Positions 1 to 7,078 of a stretch of 7,653 nucleotides of DNA are shown piece after piece. This DNA is from an uncultured Clostridium sp. (GTDB lineage Bacteria > Bacillota_A > Clostridia > Lachnospirales > Lachnospiraceae), in the NCBI GenBank assembly GCA_947174825.1, contig CAMWKN010000060.1, positions 1-7,653 on the forward strand, written 5' to 3'. How positions within the stretch are numbered: the first letter of the stretch is position 1; every line of letters starts with the position of its first letter. Position numbers and translations under genes: made by a program. The notes below the pieces were generated by a model that saw only the letters and a program-made list of their open reading frames with translations, was not told where the DNA came from and ran no database searches.

Positions 1-1609
1 GACACACATCTGCAGATAGGATTGTTGTCAAATCCTCACTCAAAACATCTTCTTCTACAATTCTAGAACTCTGCCTGCGAATAATATCCTCAATAAAGTT
101 TCTGACCATTCTCCCATTTCCAGAAGAGGCTGTCGCATGTCTCTTTAATCTGACTATCTCTTCTTCAAATATCTTCTCTGCATCATTTTCCATAATAAAA
201 CCGCGAACGGAAATCATTTGTTTTCCAATTTCAAACATTTCAGTAGCAGAGTAATCCGGGAAGTCTATTCTCAAAGGAAATCTGGATTCAAGTCCAGAGT
301 TTGCTTTCAGAAAATCACTCATTTCCTTACTATACCCAGCCAGAATCACTATAATTTCGCCCTTATGATCTTCAATGAGTTTAACAAGGGTATCAATGCA
401 CTCCTGTCCAAAACTGCTGCCATCATTTGTTAACGCATATGCCTCATCAATGAAAAGGATACCACCAATAGCAGACTTAAACACATCCTCCGTCTTCTTA
501 GCAGTTTGCCCTACATACTCCGCAATCAAGCCAGCCTTATCCGTTTCCACAAGCTGTCCCTTTTTCAGAATCCCCATTGATTTGAACATATCTGCAACTA
601 CTCGAGCAATAGTAGTTTTTCCTGTGCCAGGATTACCGGCAAATATCATATTAAGAGCTTGTGACGTGTCAACATTTAAGTCTGCCTTACGTCTCTTCTC
701 AATTGCAAGACACATCTTATATTGTGTACGGACAAAATCCTTAACCTTTTCTAGCCCTATAATCTTTGCCAATTCATTTTCAAGATCATAGTTCTTAAGT
801 TTGTCCTCCCCTTTGATGTCCTGTGGCAAAATCAGATTAGTTTCATCTTGATTAACATCCTCTTCAACTACTCGCACGGACTGCTTGCGAACAATCTCAT
901 CTATTATATTACGTACCATGCGACCATTTCCAGCATTTTCCGATGCATATTGTTTCTGATCCGCAATCTCATTTCTAAAGGCTTTTTTGCCCTCATCCTC
1001 AAGACGAAATCCTCGGGAGACAATCATCCTTAAACCGATCTGATATAACTCATCCGCTGAATAATCGGAAAATTCTATAAAAAGAGGAAACCTCGACTCA
1101 AGTCCGGAATTGGCTTTCATAAAATCCTTCATCTCCTTGCTGTATCCCGCAAGGATGACTACTATCTCGCCTCTAAAATCTTCTATCAGCTTTACAAGAG
1201 TATCAATGCACTCCTGCCCAAAACTACTACCATCATTTGTAATAGCATACGCTTCATCAATAAATAGAACTCCACCAAGAGCAGATTTGAATACTTCCTC
1301 CGTCTTTTGTGCAGTCTGTCCTACATACTGTGCCACCAATCCACCTTTGTCCGTTTCAATTAACTGTCCGGACTTAAGTAAATCCATAGAATACAACATA
1401 TCTGCTACAATCCTCGCCATAGTTGTTTTTCCCGTTCCAGGATTGCCTGCAAATATCATATTAAGAGACTGAGTGGTATCAACATCAATATTTGCCTTTT
1501 TTCTTTTTTTATTTGCCTGAAGCATAGTGTACTGAGTTCGAATAAATTTCTTAACTTCCTCCATTCCTATCACTTCAGACAGGCTTTTCTCCAAATCGAA
1601 TGCAACAAT
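1..1609 (-). repeat. Tandem AAA+ module duplication with an 810-bp (270-codon) period
   Basis: The second and third CbbX-type modules (residues 669-938, bases 800-1609, and residues 939-1204, bases 1-799) align without gaps at a spacing of exactly 270 codons. Walker A lysines 729/999, Walker B aspartates 786/1056, arginine fingers 841/1111 and sensor-2 arginines 901/1171 all keep that offset. By hand alignment about 143 of 200 residues are identical over 711-910 versus 981-1180, and about 114 of 140 in the Walker A to arginine-finger core. The DNA is similar too: tatcaatgcactcctg occurs at 391 and again at 1201. The first module (400-668) is more divergent and offset by 267-268 codons. The pattern indicates a later duplication of one module. 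Confidence 0.85.
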
Positions 1610-3613
1610 CTTATCAAATCCAAAATCTGATGGGATAAGAAGTTCCATATCATCCTCTGGATTCTGAACAATCCTCTGTGATTGATTTAGTATGGCAGAT
1701 TCTATGAGATTCCTTACGAGACGTCCATTACCTCCATCATTCTTGCCTTTTATCTGATGCTTCTCAAATACATGAAGCATACCCTCTTCACATGCATCCG
1801 ATAATCGATATCCTTTGGATTTTGCAGTTATCTTGGCAATTTCATACATTTCATCTATAGAGTAGTCTTCGAAATGTACTACATTAGGGAATCTTGACTT
1901 CAACCCAGAATTTACTTTCAGAAATTCCTGCATTTCATCTTCATACCCGGCAAGGATTACAACCAGATCATCTCTGTGATCCTCCATCCCCTTTACGAGA
2001 GCATCTATAGCTTCCAAACCAAAGGTATCATTCATGTCTCTGCTAAGAGAATATGCCTCATCAATAAAGAGTACACCGCCTAAAGCACTTTTTATTACAT
2101 CCGTCGTTTTAACTGCCGTGTGTCCAGCATATTGTCCCACTAAATCTGCTCTTGTCACTTCGCACAAATGTCCCGAAGATAATACGCCTATTGCCTTAAG
2201 GTATTTAGCAACAATACGTGCTATAGTCGTTTTTCCGGTTCCCGGATTTCCAACAAAAATCATATGCATGGAAACATCTGATTTCTTCAATCCTTTTCCT
2301 TCACGCATCTGTTGCACTTTGTAGTTTGTTTCGAGATCAAGGACATACTTTTTAACCTTTTCCAGTCCTATAACCTGATCCAATTCCTTTCGTGCCTCTT
2401 CCAGCTCGGCTGCACTGTAGTTCTTTAGGAATTGTGAAGTTTGAATCTTTTCTCCACCTTTCCGTTCAACACAATATCCATCTTCATATGTTAGCTTTAC
2501 GCTCTCATCATCCCACAGAAGTTCCTGTAATTTCATTTCAGAAAGCGTGTCGTACAGATTATCTTCAATATATTCTTCAACCCCCTTAACGCCTTGATCT
2601 GATTGATAATGCTTGCCGATTTCACTGAGAATCTGCTCATCGATTTCTATGTTAATATGGAGATTATCTCTGCACTTCCGTTCCAGATTTACACATAATG
2701 TAACTACCAGGTCTCTGACCTGTTTATCCGCAATCGGATCAAGCGTGATAATATCACCAAGTTCTTTAACAATCTTATTTCCCAAGAAAGATATCGCTTC
2801 GGCCTGTGGCATTGTAGTTGTAAATACAAAAAATTTTCCGTTAGTATCTATTTCGGAAATCAACTCCGTGTTCAAAACACCAGTTGCCTCAACAAGGCTT
2901 CCGTTGTTGATCATATATCGTTTTGATAGTTTATATGTTCCCTCTGTCAAAAGCTGATAAATGATATCCATCTGAGTTAATGATGCTTTGTCAATATTCT
3001 CAAAAACCGCAGTTTCTGTATTTATATTGAGAACCTTGTATAAATCGCTCAAGAAAAGAGCATTTGATGAATCTGAAGCATAATCCTCGAAATCCATCAT
3101 AGCTACTTCTGCATATCGGAACACTTTTTTCTGTCTTAGCAGCTCACTGATACATCGAATAGCATACACCCGTCCCCTGCTCTCAGAACCAATAAGCAAA
3201 ATCGCATTCTTAGGCTTTTTATTATCAAACCCTCGGACAAATGGTCTTTGATACGCCTTACATATGGCATCTCGGTCTTTTTCAGATCCTACCCAATACT
3301 TCTTAAGGACATCTGCAAGTCCCTCGAAAGCATCGCCTGCTTTTGATACAGATTTGACATCTTCCTTTGTCGGCGTATATGTATTCTGGCTAGTTTTAGC
3401 AGTCTGCGAAGCTGCTGGGGCTGATGCCACCCCCTGCATTGGTTGCGAGTAAGCTGGGGCTGCCTGTTGCTGGACTGCTCCCTGCGCATATACCTGAGAT
3501 GTCTGTTGTGCAATTTTTTTTTCAGATTGGGATTTGGCAATGAAGCCACGCTCATCAACACATGCTTTTATCTGATATTCTGGGAATAGAAACTTTAATA
3601 TGTCCTTTGCCAT
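1..3613 (-). CDS. Giant multi-module AAA+ ATPase (ClpB-like pseudo-module plus three CbbX/SpoVK-type modules), 3' end outside window
   Basis: The frame is open from ATG 3613 to the left edge (1204 codons). AGGAG at 3621-3625, 7 nt before the ATG, fixes the start. Order: N-terminal tail 1-37; Q/A/P/S-rich linker about 38-80; degenerate ClpB-like AAA+ module about 105-385; CbbX/SpoVK-type modules at about 400-668, 669-938 and 939-1204. Each CbbX module has Walker A GNPGTGKT (K461, K729, K999), Walker B FIDEAY (D518/E519, D786/E787, D1056/E1057), a pore-loop tyrosine (Y495, Y763, Y1033), an SRFP arginine finger (R574, R841, R1111) and sensor 2 GNGRxVRN (R634, R901, R1171). Known: CbbX-type ATPases are hexameric remodelling motors (Rubisco activase CbbX, SpoVK, EccA of type VII secretion). 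Inferred: a cytosolic ATP-driven remodelling or unfolding machine; no signal peptide or membrane segment is seen. Its client is unknown. The visible end aligns with the module boundary, so the protein may stop soon or carry another module. Confidence 0.93.
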   Translation of the reverse strand, partial: MAKDILKFLFPEYQIKACVDERGFIAKSQSEKKIAQQTSQVYAQGAVQQQAAPAYSQPMQGVASAPAASQTAKTSQNTYTPTKEDVKSVSKAGDAFEGLADVLKKYWVGSEKDRDAICKAYQRPFVRGFDNKKPKNAILLIGSESRGRVYAIRCISELLRQKKVFRYAEVAMMDFEDYASDSSNALFLSDLYKVLNINTETAVFENIDKASLTQMDIIYQLLTEGTYKLSKRYMINNGSLVEATGVLNTELISEIDTNGKFFVFTTTMPQAEAISFLGNKIVKELGDIITLDPIADKQVRDLVVTLCVNLERKCRDNLHINIEIDEQILSEIGKHYQSDQGVKGVEEYIEDNLYDTLSEMKLQELLWDDESVKLTYEDGYCVERKGGEKIQTSQFLKNYSAAELEEARKELDQVIGLEKVKKYVLDLETNYKVQQMREGKGLKKSDVSMHMIFVGNPGTGKTTIARIVAKYLKAIGVLSSGHLCEVTRADLVGQYAGHTAVKTTDVIKSALGGVLFIDEAYSLSRDMNDTFGLEAIDALVKGMEDHRDDLVVILAGYEDEMQEFLKVNSGLKSRFPNVVHFEDYSIDEMYEIAKITAKSKGYRLSDACEEGMLHVFEKHQIKGKNDGGNGRLVRNLIESAILNQSQRIVQNPEDDMELLIPSDFGFDKIVAFDLEKSLSEVIGMEEVKKFIRTQYTMLQANKKRKKANIDVDTTQSLNMIFAGNPGTGKTTMARIVADMLYSMDLLKSGQLIETDKGGLVAQYVGQTAQKTEEVFKSALGGVLFIDEAYAITNDGSSFGQECIDTLVKLIEDFRGEIVVILAGYSKEMKDFMKANSGLESRFPLFIEFSDYSADELYQIGLRMIVSRGFRLEDEGKKAFRNEIADQKQYASENAGNGRMVRNIIDEIVRKQSVRVVEEDVNQDETNLILPQDIKGEDKLKNYDLENELAKIIGLEKVKDFVRTQYKMCLAIEKRRKADLNVDTSQALNMIFAGNPGTGKTTIARVVADMFKSMGILKKGQLVETDKAGLIAEYVGQTAKKTEDVFKSAIGGILFIDEAYALTNDGSSFGQECIDTLVKLIEDHKGEIIVILAGYSKEMSDFLKANSGLESRFPLRIDFPDYSATEMFEIGKQMISVRGFIMENDAEKIFEEEIVRLKRHATASSGNGRMVRNFIEDIIRRQSSRIVEEDVLSEDLTTILSADVC
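2459..3301 (-). other. Degenerate ClpB/ClpA D2-like AAA+ module inside the giant ATPase
   Basis: Residues about 105-385 follow the layout of a Clp/Hsp100 D2 domain. The Walker A position reads GSESRGRV (142-149) where GPTGVGKT is expected, so the lysine is R148 and the threonine V149. The Walker B position reads VFENIDKAS (203-211) instead of LLDEIEKAH. The following helix, IIYQLLTEGTYKL (217-229), matches the ILLQILDDGRLTD stretch of ClpB. FFVFTTTMP (261-269) takes the sensor-1 place (VIIMTSNLG). FLGNKIVKELGDIITLDPI (276-294) resembles the arginine-finger segment but has K where R is expected. Residues about 295-360 resemble the ClpB small domain. The GYVGYEEGG pore loop is absent. I infer a non-hydrolysing structural or client-binding module. 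The match was made by eye against remembered family motifs. Confidence 0.7.
3374..3502 (-). other. Low-complexity Q/A/P/S-rich linker in the giant ATPase
   Basis: Residues about 38-80 are dominated by Gln, Ala, Pro, Ser and Thr, with almost no charged residues and few bulky hydrophobic ones. This suggests a flexible, disordered tether between the N-terminal tail (residues 1-37, containing FLFPEY and CVDERGF) and the ClpB-like module. The tail could be a targeting or docking element held away from the motor; that is inference. Confidence 0.7.
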
Positions 3614-3701
3614 TTTCCTTCTCCTATCTCATTGGCTATACTCATCCTAAATAATTTATGATGTAAGATGGTCTGAATGCTTCAACAAACTGCTTTTATT
3701 T

Positions 3702-3740
3702 ACGATAGATTATACCACTTCCCAATTTCATTTGCCACAA
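3702..3740 (-). promoter_or_regulatory. Extended -10 SigA-type promoter of the giant ATPase gene
   Basis: Read on the minus strand, TATAAT (3709-3714) is preceded directly by TGG (3715-3717), giving an extended -10 element TGnTATAAT. A weak -35 candidate, TGGCAA, lies 17 nt upstream of the -10. Transcription would start near 3702, leaving a 5' leader of roughly 90 nt before the ATG at 3613. The promoter sits immediately past the terminator of the preceding operon, so the ATPase gene appears to be transcribed independently. Confidence 0.7.
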
Positions 3741-3765
3741 AAAAATAGAGCATGACAAGCTCCAT
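3739..3765 (-). terminator. Intrinsic terminator ending the acetyltransferase/methyltransferase operon
   Basis: On the minus strand ATGGAGC (3759-3765) pairs with GCTCTAT (3745-3751) across a 7-nt loop, forming a 7-bp stem with one G-U pair. It is followed at once by a T-run (A-run on the plus strand, 3739-3745). It lies about 50 nt after the stop of the truncated phosphotransferase and just before the ATPase promoter. A second small hairpin (ATCGT 3780-3784 with ACGAT 3789-3793) is followed on the plus strand by TTTTT and might act weakly in the other direction. Confidence 0.75.
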
Positions 3766-3817
3766 GCCCCACATTCCTTATCGTTCCAACGATTTTTCTA
3801 TTTTTCATTTCTGCCCT

Positions 3818-4324
3818 TTACGTATAACCTCCTTTGCAATACTCCATCCCCTTCAAATATTTATCCTGCCATTTTTCATTCCCCAATAGGAAAAATGTTC
3901 TTGCTACGTCATATTCCTTTGATCCACAGCAGACATTCAGTAAATCAATGATTACAAACTTCCCCTCTGCGGTTATCATTACATTACCCGGATGATAGTC
4001 TCCATGCAAAACAAAATTGCCATCTGGCAATTCTAAAATCTCCTTTATAATATCTCCTGATATTTCCCTATTGTTCCCTCCACTTATCATCGCAATCAAA
4101 AAAGCTTTGTATGAGATTAGTACGTCAGTTGAAATATCCAGTAATTTCTTATGCTCTTCAATAAATGCCTCAAATATATTCTTATTGTCTATATACTCCC
4201 ACATTGGAACTCCATCAATCTTTTCATAAATAACCCCATACCGCCCATCACGACTCACTATCTCAAATGTCTCCGGCACACGAATCCCCAATTTGAAAAG
4301 GTTTCTGGCATTTTCATTCTCCCA
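3818..4324 (-). pseudogene. Truncated aminoglycoside/choline kinase-like phosphotransferase
   Basis: The reading frame gives 168 residues between a stop at 4325-4327 and TAA at 3818-3820. The kinase-like C-lobe is recognisable: catalytic loop HGDYHPGN (H96-N103 counting from the TTG at 4291), then a metal-binding-type Asp in VIIDLL (D116) and YDVART. The upstream part resembles the end of an N-lobe (RVPETFEIV, then GRYGVIYEKIDG). The family is usually well over 200 residues with a complete ATP-binding N-lobe. Here that lobe and its lysine are missing, because the methyltransferase gene ends only about 35 bp upstream. The C-terminal helices also seem short, the protein ending soon after FFLLGNEKW. 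The frame has no ATG with a ribosome binding site; TTG 4291 is the first plausible start and lacks one. I infer a deletion remnant, probably inactive. A short functional protein with a new role is possible but less likely. Confidence 0.75.
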
Positions 4325-4358
4325 TTATAGTCAGTTTCTACCATGTTATATACAGCAT

Positions 4359-5027
4359 TTATTTCCTTGCCAATATCCCTACCTGCATATAAGACACCCA
4401 CAAAATCTCCACCACTCGAAAACCACAGTCTTTCAAAAGTTCGATAGATTCTGAAATCGATATAGGAAAATAACTCTGTCCATAACGTTTAATATGCAAC
4501 TCCGCCTCTTCCTTAGTTTTCCCATTTGCAATCTGAAAATCTTTCCAACGCTCTAAATATAATCTTGTACACTCCTCACTGTCCGGTGCAAAATTTTCAA
4601 AAGAAATATATATTCCGTTTTCTTCTAAAGCATCATAACAATTTTTTATGGCTGCTATACGCTCATCTTTCTTAAAATAATGATTTACCTGTATTGCAGT
4701 CAAGATATTGAACATCTCTTGATACGGCAGTTCTCTGACATCACATTGCAGAAATTCCACTTTCTCATGATTACAAAGTTTTTCTGCCCACTCAAGCATT
4801 GACTCCTCCACATCAATGCACACCATTTTCTGTATATCAAAATTATCCAATGCCGTCCTTGCCATTTTCCCTGTTCCACATCCCACATCAAGCCACCGAA
4901 GTGATTGCAAATCCAACAACCTTACAATATCAACAATCTGCTGAATCATTTCCTCATAAAATGGTAATGTTCTTTTTATCTGTTTATCATATTCCGCCAC
5001 ATCAAAGGGTGTAGAATTTTGTTTCAT
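4359..5027 (-). CDS. Class I SAM-dependent methyltransferase
   Basis: A 222-residue protein with the Rossmann-like SAM-binding fold. Motif I is LDVGCGTG (L46-G53). An acidic residue ending strand beta-2 is in VCIDVEESM (D72), motif II is in LQCDVRELPY (D96), and ALEENGIYISFENF (133-146) corresponds to the motif III strand region. The length fits a complete stand-alone methyltransferase; residues after about 150 form the variable substrate-side region. The ATG at 5027 has AAGGAAG at 5035-5041, spaced 7 nt. It follows a GNAT gene by 31 bp and precedes the phosphotransferase remnant, so it is probably co-transcribed. Substrate unknown: small molecules, tRNA or quinone-like compounds cannot be told apart from motifs alone. 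The sequence shows no sign of damage. Confidence 0.9.
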   Translation of the reverse strand: MKQNSTPFDVAEYDKQIKRTLPFYEEMIQQIVDIVRLLDLQSLRWLDVGCGTGKMARTALDNFDIQKMVCIDVEESMLEWAEKLCNHEKVEFLQCDVRELPYQEMFNILTAIQVNHYFKKDERIAAIKNCYDALEENGIYISFENFAPDSEECTRLYLERWKDFQIANGKTKEEAELHIKRYGQSYFPISISESIELLKDCGFRVVEILWVSYMQVGILARK

Positions 5028-5058
5028 ACCGTTTCTTCCTTCCGTTGTAACATAAGTA

Positions 5059-5568
5059 TCATATATTTTGATAACAATACTGTACTTCTTTCAATTTCTT
5101 CCCGCCAATATCACTGAACAAACAACGCTCCGTCTGCACAAAGCCACACTTCTCATAAAAATAACGTGCATTCTGATTTTCCTCCAACACCCATAAAAAC
5201 ACTTTGTCAAATCCCATTTTCTTCAATTCATTGACAGCTGCCTGCAATAGCAATCTGCCATACCCCTTTCCCATATATTCTGGCAAAAAATAAAGGGAAA
5301 TAATTTCACCAAAACCATTCATTTCTGCCATTCTTGATTTGCTAAAACCAGATGTTCCAATAATCATCTCATCCTGAACCATTACCAGATTCTTTCTATC
5401 TGCCTGTTCTATATGCGATGCCCACTGCCCCTTCGGAATGCTATCAAGATAATCCTGCGGTATTATACCTTTATACGCATATTTCCAGCTTTCCTCATAA
5501 ACTTTACTAATAGCATGCCTGTCGTCTGATTTTGTGATGTAACGAATTTCCAAGTTCAACATCTCCAT
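5059..5568 (-). CDS. GNAT family N-acetyltransferase
   Basis: A 169-residue single-domain acetyltransferase that transfers acetyl from acetyl-CoA to an amine. The acetyl-CoA pyrophosphate-binding motif A is at 93-107, with G100-K101-G102-Y103-G104 following the beta-4 strand IISLYFLPEY. Motif B is LWVLEENQNARYFYEKCGF (125-143), with the typical helix carrying Y138. The N-terminal segment containing SKVYEESWKYAYKGIIP resembles a common Firmicutes GNAT group annotated only generically, so the substrate is not assignable. The start is uncertain: ATG 5568 and ATG 5562 both lack a clear ribosome binding site. Translation may depend on coupling to the TfoX-like gene 53 bp upstream. The gene is intact and sits 31 bp before the methyltransferase. 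Confidence 0.9.
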   Translation of the reverse strand: MEMLNLEIRYITKSDDRHAISKVYEESWKYAYKGIIPQDYLDSIPKGQWASHIEQADRKNLVMVQDEMIIGTSGFSKSRMAEMNGFGEIISLYFLPEYMGKGYGRLLLQAAVNELKKMGFDKVFLWVLEENQNARYFYEKCGFVQTERCLFSDIGGKKLKEVQYCYQNI

Positions 5569-5621
5569 TCCATACTGTATAAAGTTCGCAAAACCATTGA
5601 TTCTGAAAGTTATCCAAAATA

Positions 5622-5876
5622 CTATTTTAGAAAATCACTAAACTCTTTTAATTCTTTTTTCTTTTCTTCGGAAAGACAATTAAACTCGGTATTACAAATC
5701 GCACCTTCTAAAGTATACAAATGTACCAGACAAACATTGGGATATTCCTGTTTCAACTGCAAAAATGCCTGTTTGCTCCCTATCTGGATCAATTTCTCCG
5801 ATGAATCAATCCCAATTGTTGTCAATTTTTTTGCCATTTCTTTCCCAATATTCATCATTTCTGTTAATTCTGACAT
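5622..5876 (-). CDS. Stand-alone TfoX C-terminal domain protein
   Basis: An 84-residue protein that resembles the C-terminal domain of TfoX/Sxy. It begins SELTEMMNIGKEMAKKLTTIGI, continues with EKLIQIGSKQAFLQLK (27-42), CLVHLYTLEGAI (49-60), and ends LSEEKKKELKEFSDFLK (68-84). The first half has the helix-turn-helix spacing of helix-hairpin-helix-like folds. In proteobacteria TfoX is a competence regulator, but isolated copies of this domain are widespread in Firmicutes with no established role, so no competence function should be assumed. ATG 5876 has GAGGAG at 5884-5889, spaced 7 nt. The gene lies between two acetyltransferases in the same operon. Length matches a complete single domain. 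Confidence 0.85.
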   Translation of the reverse strand: MSELTEMMNIGKEMAKKLTTIGIDSSEKLIQIGSKQAFLQLKQEYPNVCLVHLYTLEGAICNTEFNCLSEEKKKELKEFSDFLK

Positions 5877-5986
5877 GTATTTTCTCCTCTATCAAATTCA
5901 AATTTATTCTGTTCTGTAGTTTCTCCATTATCCGTTTCCCACTCCTTGCCATAACGGTTATAAATCTCAGCATTCCATATACACAC
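5864..5986 (-). CDS. Possible small ORF or C-terminal gene remnant overlapping the TfoX-like start
   Basis: A 40-codon frame from GTG 5984-5986 to TAA 5864-5866 fills most of the 130-bp gap between the second GNAT and the TfoX-like gene. It encodes a charged, aromatic peptide starting CIWNAEIYNRYGKEWE and ending FEFDRGENTC. Its end overlaps the start of the TfoX-like gene, a layout typical of translational coupling. An in-frame TGA lies just upstream of the GTG, and no good ribosome binding site precedes it. I do not recognise it. It may be the tail of a deleted gene or non-coding. Confidence 0.25.
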   Translation of the reverse strand: MCIWNAEIYNRYGKEWETDNGETTEQNKFEFDRGENTCQN

Positions 5987-6006
5987 CCTATATTTTACTC
6001 ACAATT

Positions 6007-6456
6007 TTATACTTTCTCCATATACACAAATCTCAATTCTTCTGTAACCTGTTCCTCGTCAAAAATTTTATAACCAAGTTTCTTATACAATGCTATATTC
6101 TTTTCACTTCTGGTACTGGTAAACAACTCGTATCTTTGTTTTGGATATTGCTTTTCCATTTCAAGCAAAAGTTGTGTCCCTATCCCTTGTCCTTGTTTTG
6201 ATGGATGAACCATCAATTTTCCAATATAAACAGTTCCATTATTGCAAAATGCCCTAACCGATCCTATAATAACATTGTTTTCATCTAATGCTTTCAAAAT
6301 AATACCTCTTTGATATTCGTCCTCTACATCAGCCAAAGTTTGTTTTAGTGGTGGAATATCTTCGTTATCAAAAAGCCTCGCCTCGCTTTGATAAGCAAGA
6401 TACTGCAAGTCAAGTATTTCTGATAAGTCTCCTTTTTCTGCTTTTATTATGATCAT
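6007..6456 (-). CDS. GNAT family N-acetyltransferase
   Basis: A 149-residue single-domain acetyltransferase. It starts at ATG 6456 (MIIIKAEKGDLSEIL) because GGAGG at 6464-6468 lies 7 nt upstream. A longer frame from 6501 would overlap the preceding gene and has no such site. Motif A is IGKLMVHPSKQGQGIGTQLL (78-97), with Q88-G89-Q90-G91-I92-G93 contacting the acetyl-CoA pyrophosphate. Motif B is TSTRSEKNIALYKKLGYK (113-130), with the conserved helix tyrosine Y124. The tail ELRFVYMEK is a usual last beta strand. The gene begins 23 bp after the upstream GNAT stops, so the two are very likely co-translated. The substrate (metabolite, peptide or drug) is not predictable from these motifs. Confidence 0.92.
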   Translation of the reverse strand: MIIIKAEKGDLSEILDLQYLAYQSEARLFDNEDIPPLKQTLADVEDEYQRGIILKALDENNVIIGSVRAFCNNGTVYIGKLMVHPSKQGQGIGTQLLLEMEKQYPKQRYELFTSTRSEKNIALYKKLGYKIFDEEQVTEELRFVYMEKV

Positions 6457-6479
6457 GCTATATCCTCCAAAACAAAAAA

Positions 6480-6932
6480 CTAAAGTTTCTTTTTCATACA
6501 AATTGATTCGTCCATATCAACATATTGTCCATAATTGGGAATAACTCTATAACCAATTTTTCTGTATAATGCCATCGCTGATACAAGCAGTTCCCCCGAC
6601 TCCAGTATAAAATACCGAAATCCCCTTTCCTTCGCCTGCTTTTCGAGCATTTCCATTAGTTCCTTTGATATACCCATTCCACGATATTCTTCTTTCACAA
6701 ACACTCTCTTTACTTCCGCACATTCATCATTAAATTTCTTGAAACTAGCACAGGCAACAGGAATATTATTGTCATACACTACAATAACATCATGTATATC
6801 ATCCAATTTGTTGTATTGAACATATCCTATGCTATTTTCTTCTCCTCCAACAAGTTCATTTAGAAAATCATCTAATTTATGGCACAATTCTATAAAATCT
6901 TTGTTGCAACCATCTTTATATTCAAATTGCAC
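6480..6932 (-). CDS. GNAT family N-acetyltransferase with GTG start
   Basis: A 150-residue single-domain acetyltransferase. The chosen start is GTG 6930-6932 (M-QFEYKDG), because AAGGAGG at 6942-6948 stands 9 nt upstream. The alternative ATG at 6965 lies inside the upstream small ORF and has no comparable site. Motif A is VFVKEEYRGMGISKELMEML (77-96), with R84-G85-M86-G87-I88. Motif B includes LESGELLVSAMALYRKIGY (110-128) with Y123. This 'ESG...A..LYRK.GY' pattern followed by IPNYGQY is typical of a broad GNAT subgroup seen in many bacteria. It shows no close similarity by eye to the neighbouring GNAT, so the pair is not a fresh duplication. It is the first long gene of the operon. Confidence 0.92.
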   Translation of the reverse strand: MQFEYKDGCNKDFIELCHKLDDFLNELVGGEENSIGYVQYNKLDDIHDVIVVYDNNIPVACASFKKFNDECAEVKRVFVKEEYRGMGISKELMEMLEKQAKERGFRYFILESGELLVSAMALYRKIGYRVIPNYGQYVDMDESICMKKKL

Positions 6933-6946
6933 GGTATATAGCCTCC

Positions 6947-7078
6947 TTAACCACTCATATTGCACGCTACTAGCACCATGCCCTTTGTATCATCAAAGGA
7001 AAATATAATTTTTTTTTCTTTGATTTGAGAATAGTCATAATAAAAATTTACTGGTTCAACTTCTAGTTCTTTTCTCAT
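6947..7078 (-). CDS. Small unrecognised ORF whose stop overlaps the next gene's ribosome binding site
   Basis: A 43-codon frame from ATG 7078 to TAA 6947-6949. It starts MRKELEVEPVNFYYDYS, contains KIIFSFDDTKGMVLVACN (23-40) and ends MSG. Composition looks protein-like: alternating charged and hydrophobic segments that could form two beta strands. The stop codon runs into the AAGGAGG that serves the downstream GNAT, an arrangement expected for translational coupling. I see no ribosome binding site before the ATG. The frame stays open nine codons further upstream (from ATT after a TGA), so it may be the tail of a lost gene rather than a complete one. A run of nine A's lies inside it. No family is recognised. 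Confidence 0.45.
   Translation of the reverse strand: MRKELEVEPVNFYYDYSQIKEKKIIFSFDDTKGMVLVACNMSG
6992..7024. repeat. AT-rich inverted repeat (hairpin) inside the small ORF
   Basis: ATCAAAG (6992-6998) and CTTTGAT (7018-7024) are exact inverted repeats. Pairing can extend to about 12 bp through the flanking A/T runs, including one G-U pair. It lies about 45 nt upstream of the ribosome binding site of the first GNAT, so an mRNA hairpin could influence coupling. It is not followed by a T-run in either direction that would make it a terminator. Confidence 0.45.

Follow-up and report, generated by a model that had tools for sequence, protein, structure and literature searches.

What does a bacterial cell do with a single polypeptide in which an inactive Clp-type ATPase domain is joined to several CbbX-type AAA+ modules? 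This question is raised by contig CAMWKN010000060.1 from an uncultured Clostridium sp., of which a stretch of 7,653 nucleotides (the window) was analysed. A gene running off the left edge of the window, here named A, codes for such a chain. An initial annotation of the window had pointed out this architecture. The chain is real: the same arrangement recurs in many contigs and genomes, and a frameshift or misassembly as its source is therefore rejected. In relatives, A is usually followed by the genes of the same two unnamed membrane proteins, B and C, and A therefore looks like part of an undescribed membrane machine.

A degenerate Clp domain is followed by intact CbbX-type modules

According to a fold comparison of the predicted structure, residues ~86-388 of A possess the fold of a Clp NBD2. 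The catalytic Glu of this domain is present in none of 21 aligned family members, and a GK[ST] motif in five of the 21. Judged from these data, the N-terminal domain is of the ClpB/ClpC NBD2 type without a working NBD2 ATPase site, in agreement with the inactive Clp-like module that had been proposed initially. The three modules that follow in the window (M1, M2 and M3) all keep Walker A and B, an aromatic pore loop, the sensor-1 GY, the Arg finger and the sensor-2 Arg, which places them in the CbbX/SpoVK/EccA clade and confirms that active modules of this type share the polypeptide. The consulted parts of PMC10659427 define the sensor-1 GY and a second Arg finger as clade features; the Asn that is also given there, four positions ahead of the Arg finger, is unmatched in A, where it lies six positions ahead by hand count. 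In a survey of 328 modules from 111 proteins, many of them near-identical, the modules were selected by their Walker A pattern; the pore loop was found in 323, Walker B in 326, sensor-1 in 325, the Arg finger in 326 and sensor-2 in 319. The last module, like the other live ones, nearly always retains both Walker motifs and the Arg finger.

The full-length protein probably contains four live modules

A homologue search with residues 90-400 of A, which admitted proteins of up to ~2100 amino acids, yielded 88 proteins, many of them near-identical. Counting of Walker A and B motifs assigned four live modules to 22 of these, three to 56, two to eight and one to two proteins, the latter two possibly being truncated by contig ends; four was the maximum among the 88. 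The two nearest homologues of the window protein (90% and 89%) carry four. In a tree of 68 modules, computed with a quick method and with 18 of 65 inner branches open, the M1 (19 rows), middle (17) and last modules (18) are each split off by one branch (SH-aLRT 98, 100 and 99). As both M2 and M3 of the window are of the middle type, the last module is missing, and comparison with the relative P0002 indicates that the reading frame leaves the window just before its expected position. Three active modules, as initially annotated, are thus present in the window, but the complete protein most probably had four. The break lies near DNA repeated at a spacing of 810 bases (window 1-455), and the contig may end there due to a repeat-caused stop of the assembly.

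Five single-module relatives without B and C cluster with M1 in the module tree; an ancestor consisting of the dead Clp domain and M1 would therefore fit. Members sharing the same operon have three, four or five AAA domains in total. The loci L024-L032 and L034, mostly from Acutalibacter and kin, code for single-module relatives without B and C, and several of them adjoin an aroD-like gene and an iron-type ABC transporter (by eye). An orphan Clostridium relative of 1126 residues (L110:7263-10643) has no N-terminal peptide, B or C, and its last module appears decayed. Tandem CbbX modules are no peculiarity of A: two-module proteins without a dead Clp domain exist in a Mesobacillus genome (L086:6524-8848, 774 residues) and on a Virgibacillus plasmid (L089:3536-5614, 692 residues).

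Two predicted membrane proteins accompany A in relatives

In 20 of 22 loci (L001-L022), A, B and C follow each other in this order on one contig. At the remaining two, L018 and L022, the contig stops inside A, and the rest of A plus B and C are found on another contig. Partner genes beyond the left edge had been predicted from the window; in relatives they do follow A, the DNA left of position 1 being unread in the window itself. Each of the 22 genomes has exactly one copy of C, and the remaining 12 of 34 have none; L023 and L033 are without C, L033 being a 71-residue piece at 48%. With C as bait, positives were detected in 2 of 397, 6 of 391, 6 of 250 and 7 of 348 genomes of four draws, which may overlap and each contain their starting genome, so that these rates err on the high side. 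In 18 of the 21 positives, A, B and C are contiguous; ten of the 21 lie outside the earlier set of 34 loci, and seven of these ten have A-B-C. G1017 contains only the later part of A on the contig with B and C. The exceptions are a fragment with stops (G398), a lone piece of 118 residues (G1264) and a B-C fusion of 309 residues with no adjoining A (G1179; L109:7419-8348). A WXG-like protein of 588 residues lies ~3.6 kb from this fusion (by eye). Four genomes of the draw around Mesobacillus (L104-L107) show the same operon and the same N-terminal peptide despite a highly divergent dead domain, which its profile detects at 9.7e-16 to 3.1e-19 or, in G1183, not at all. Across 19 loci, pairwise distances are correlated between A and B (0.87), A and C (0.69) and B and C (0.79), and for each pair none of 2000 permutations reached as high a value.

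A simple hydropathy scan detected about four hydrophobic stretches in each of 13 B proteins, which are small, one region in 13 C proteins, and no transmembrane segment in the three A proteins examined. C is predicted to span the membrane once and to have a beta-sandwich as well as a disordered tail. The predicted ectodomain has nine strands with a block predicted local distance difference test score (pLDDT) of 84-98; the transmembrane helix, residues 62-86, reaches 66-87. A fold search with the ectodomain gave no clear relative, the CBM60/36 and SpyCatcher-like rows being weak leads.

The N-terminus of A is a candidate for the contact with these partners. A peptide PE-x-[QN]-[LIV] occurs in 27 of 27 A proteins that have B/C and a complete N-terminus and in none of ten relatives lacking B/C, the ten being kin of one another. 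In the 88 homologues plus the window protein it is found in 86 of 89; one of the misses is a PEHQI variant and two proteins lack the N-terminus. AlphaFold2 predicts helices at residues 2-9 and 11-22 with a modest block pLDDT of 63-64, and values below 50 for residues 25-88. The peptide may thus serve to dock A to B/C.

A proposed membrane-coupled motor and its alternatives

We favour, tentatively and at slightly less than an even chance, the reading that the three genes A-B-C encode a membrane-coupled AAA+ machine with A as its motor. At the level of sequence this is based on the architecture, the retained active sites, the operon in relatives, the correlated divergence and the predicted membrane partners. 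The N-terminal peptide would hold A to B/C on the inner side of the membrane, and the dead Clp domain would serve, without hydrolysing ATP, as a collar or adaptor. Homohexameric rings of the live modules would be stacked around one axial pore, through which their pore-loop tyrosines would pull a polypeptide, much as CbbX, on which the idea of pore-loop pulling is modelled, does with the tail of Rubisco. One candidate for this polypeptide is the disordered tail of C itself, in which case an extracellular event sensed by C would be converted into work; the other is a dedicated substrate from the membrane or envelope that B/C would present. A change in the number of middle modules would adjust how long the motor is. 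A further-reaching proposal, possible albeit doubtful, is an undescribed class of trans-envelope machines: two to four stacked CbbX rings topped by a dead Clp ring, with a short peptide as membrane clamp, would pull a bitopic protein and couple ATP hydrolysis inside to a beta-sandwich outside, with the length set by gain or loss of middle modules.

The strongest competitor, in our view rather unlikely, is an anti-phage or other conflict system, in which C would sense an attack at the surface, A would be an ATP-driven relay and B a membrane effector. The rare and patchy distribution in the C-bait draws is consistent with this, as are the position of Fibrobacter within a starred, otherwise Bacillota group of the M1 tree and the presence of A and C in a Holophagales metagenome-assembled genome. 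Moreover, a serine-recombinase-like gene (by eye) and a DUF4236 gene resembling phage families (up to 5.1e-66) lie beside L001, and the relative P0002 has a match to the IetAS component IetA (1.2e-38), which may however reflect the shared AAA+ module alone. Against a conflict system, neither B nor C could be assigned to a family of nucleases, proteases or toxins. Searches with the L001 C protein in plasmid and phage records, and with the C alignment in viral contigs, likewise gave no match. PADLOC, applied to 127 neighbour genes that were called as longest open reading frames and are in part surely false, gave scattered matches with at most two members per family, no background rate having been measured.

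It is unlikely that A serves an envelope-building enzyme as dedicated chaperone, in the way SpoVK serves MurG, with B/C as membrane receptor or substrate. The consulted text of Delerue et al. 2023 (PMC10659427) does put forward a role as dedicated chaperones for the members of this AAA+ clade, several of them linked to the envelope, and the partners B and C look like envelope proteins. However, among the 25 of 156 neighbour families listed, no envelope-synthesis family occurs in more than three of the 127 neighbours, and the need for two to four motors would be left unexplained.

The modules of one chain could also lie side by side and close a single ring, as they do in dynein and midasin; four live domains and one dead domain per chain approach the required six. 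This arrangement, akin to the pseudo-hexamer of few chains considered in the initial annotation, is quite improbable. Two observations favour stacked rings: the total of AAA domains is three, four or five in different members that share the operon, and the motifs persist in the last module, the one that a closed ring would set face to face with the dead domain.

Finally, a role of A as the EccA counterpart in a type VII secretion system (T7SS), in line with the secretion function once suggested, is highly improbable: EccA is the second-best NCBIfam match of A after SpoVK, but EssC exceeds its cut-off in only eight of 28 A-bearing genomes and WXG100 is found in seven of 28, neither within ~0.8 Mb on the contig of A (although draft contigs could conceal such neighbours), and the N-terminal fold of A is that of Clp and not TPR.

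Features of the window and neighbouring genes

Upstream of gene A, a terminator-like site (3772-3745) and a promoter-like site (3738-3709) with a TG before the -10 element were noted, and a purine-rich stretch resembling a ribosome-binding site (RBS) precedes the ATG. A transcription start of its own is possible for gene A; support is weak because the counts in the window are near the expectation from shuffled sequences (promoter-like, 4 versus 3.9; terminator-like, 2 versus 0.7). Further upstream (3818-6965, minus strand) lies a run of small same-strand genes, namely an APH-family piece that matches its profile only in the C-terminal part, a methyltransferase, three GNATs and a TfoX_C protein. 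These look unrelated to the A-B-C operon.

The sole recurrent neighbour family among the 25 of 156 listed is DUF4236 with five members; a less frequent recurrent family could have escaped notice. At six loci (family count, five; L101, by eye), a DUF4236 gene immediately precedes A and is possibly a fourth operon member. A viral origin of the family was considered and rejected, as the queries A1 and A2 had no relative in viral contigs. The dead domain matches, at 28%, an unverified and unannotated 7.4-kb metagenome record named 'Bacteriophage sp.' (L111), which may be bacterial DNA. The best A-like plasmid record (43.7% over 93%) is likewise unannotated and was not counted as a member of the family.

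Table 1. Parts of gene A in the window and DUF4236 genes upstream of A in related loci.
Feature	Position	Strand	Remarks
Gene A	2..3613	-	3' end incomplete; dead Clp-type domain and three of probably four CbbX-type AAA+ modules
N-terminal peptide, residues 1-30	3524..3613	-	contains FLFPEYQI...GFIAK; candidate docking peptide
Linker, residues ~31-88	3350..3523	-	disordered, low-complexity; pLDDT <50
Dead AAA+ domain, residues ~89-390	2444..3349	-	Clp NBD2 fold; lost catalytic residues
Module M1, residues ~399-668	1610..2419	-	CbbX-type; Walker A at 455; in M1 clade of module tree
Module M2	803..1609	-	CbbX-type, middle type (motifs, module tree); Walker A at 723
Module M3	2..802	-	CbbX-type, middle type (motifs, module tree); Walker A at 993
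Possible own transcription start of A	3614..3772	-	terminator-, promoter- and RBS-like sites
DUF4236 gene	L001:8173-9693		
DUF4236 gene	L013:8690-9745		
DUF4236 gene	L019:8620-9675		
DUF4236 gene	L020:8651-9715		
DUF4236 gene	L021:8511-9626		
DUF4236 gene	L101:12393-13868		

Implications

If the proposed machine exists, the clade of CbbX/SpoVK/EccA dedicated chaperones would come to include a membrane machine whose chain has up to five AAA+ domains. Two unnamed membrane protein families, B and C, are singled out as being tied to A. Module types that are specific for their position and variable in copy number lend themselves naturally to asking what AAA+ motors gain from stacked tiers. Being small, self-contained and represented in Bacillaceae, the operon is amenable to genetics.

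Comparison with known systems

To our knowledge, Butyrivibrio, Mogibacterium and Fibrobacter, which are among the genera with A, do not sporulate. SpoVK (TIGR02881), expected in sporulators only, is the best NCBIfam match of A and shares the type of AAA+ module, the sensor-1 GY and the sensor-2 Arg; it has one module instead of the two to four of A and is devoid of a dead Clp domain. The whole window protein scores 861.8 bits against the SpoVK profile (cut-off 422.95), summed over its three modules. In nine genomes searched, single modules of the A family reach only 286.3-322.2 bits, and a separate SpoVK exceeds the cut-off in G013 and G019 and falls just below it in G016 (420.3). An identity of A with SpoVK is therefore rejected. 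EccA from mycobacterial type VII secretion (PDB 9lur) also contains a CbbX-type module; it has a TPR region, according to the consulted parts of PMC10659427, and a T7SS, whereas A has a dead Clp-type domain and no T7SS was found adjoining. IetA possesses a related AAA+ module, but A scores 89 bits against NF042959 (cut-off 510) and B and C match no protease family; A was thus rejected as the IetA of an IetAS system.

The nearest solved structures by sequence are those of the red-type Rubisco activase CbbX (PDB 3zuh and 3syk; E 3.4e-55), which consists of a single module and acts on Rubisco. The Hsp100 proteins ClpA, ClpB and ClpC share the NBD2 fold with residues ~86-388 of A, where this domain lacks the catalytic Glu and is followed by CbbX modules. 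A known tandem-ATPase system, with VWA and glycine-zipper partners, resembles A in that its ATPases are in tandem with the C-terminal one alone predicted to be active; it differs by C-terminal leucine-rich and beta-barrel domains, and the consulted part of its description does not mention B or C. In the text, as distinct from the figures, of the literature searched, there was no account of the architecture of A, of the A-B-C operon or of B and C. CbbX-type modules and tandems of dead and live AAA domains are already known (PMC11090510, in the parts consulted), as are tandem CbbX modules. A is therefore best described as a variation on a known kind, and its combination with the partner set B and C is undescribed.
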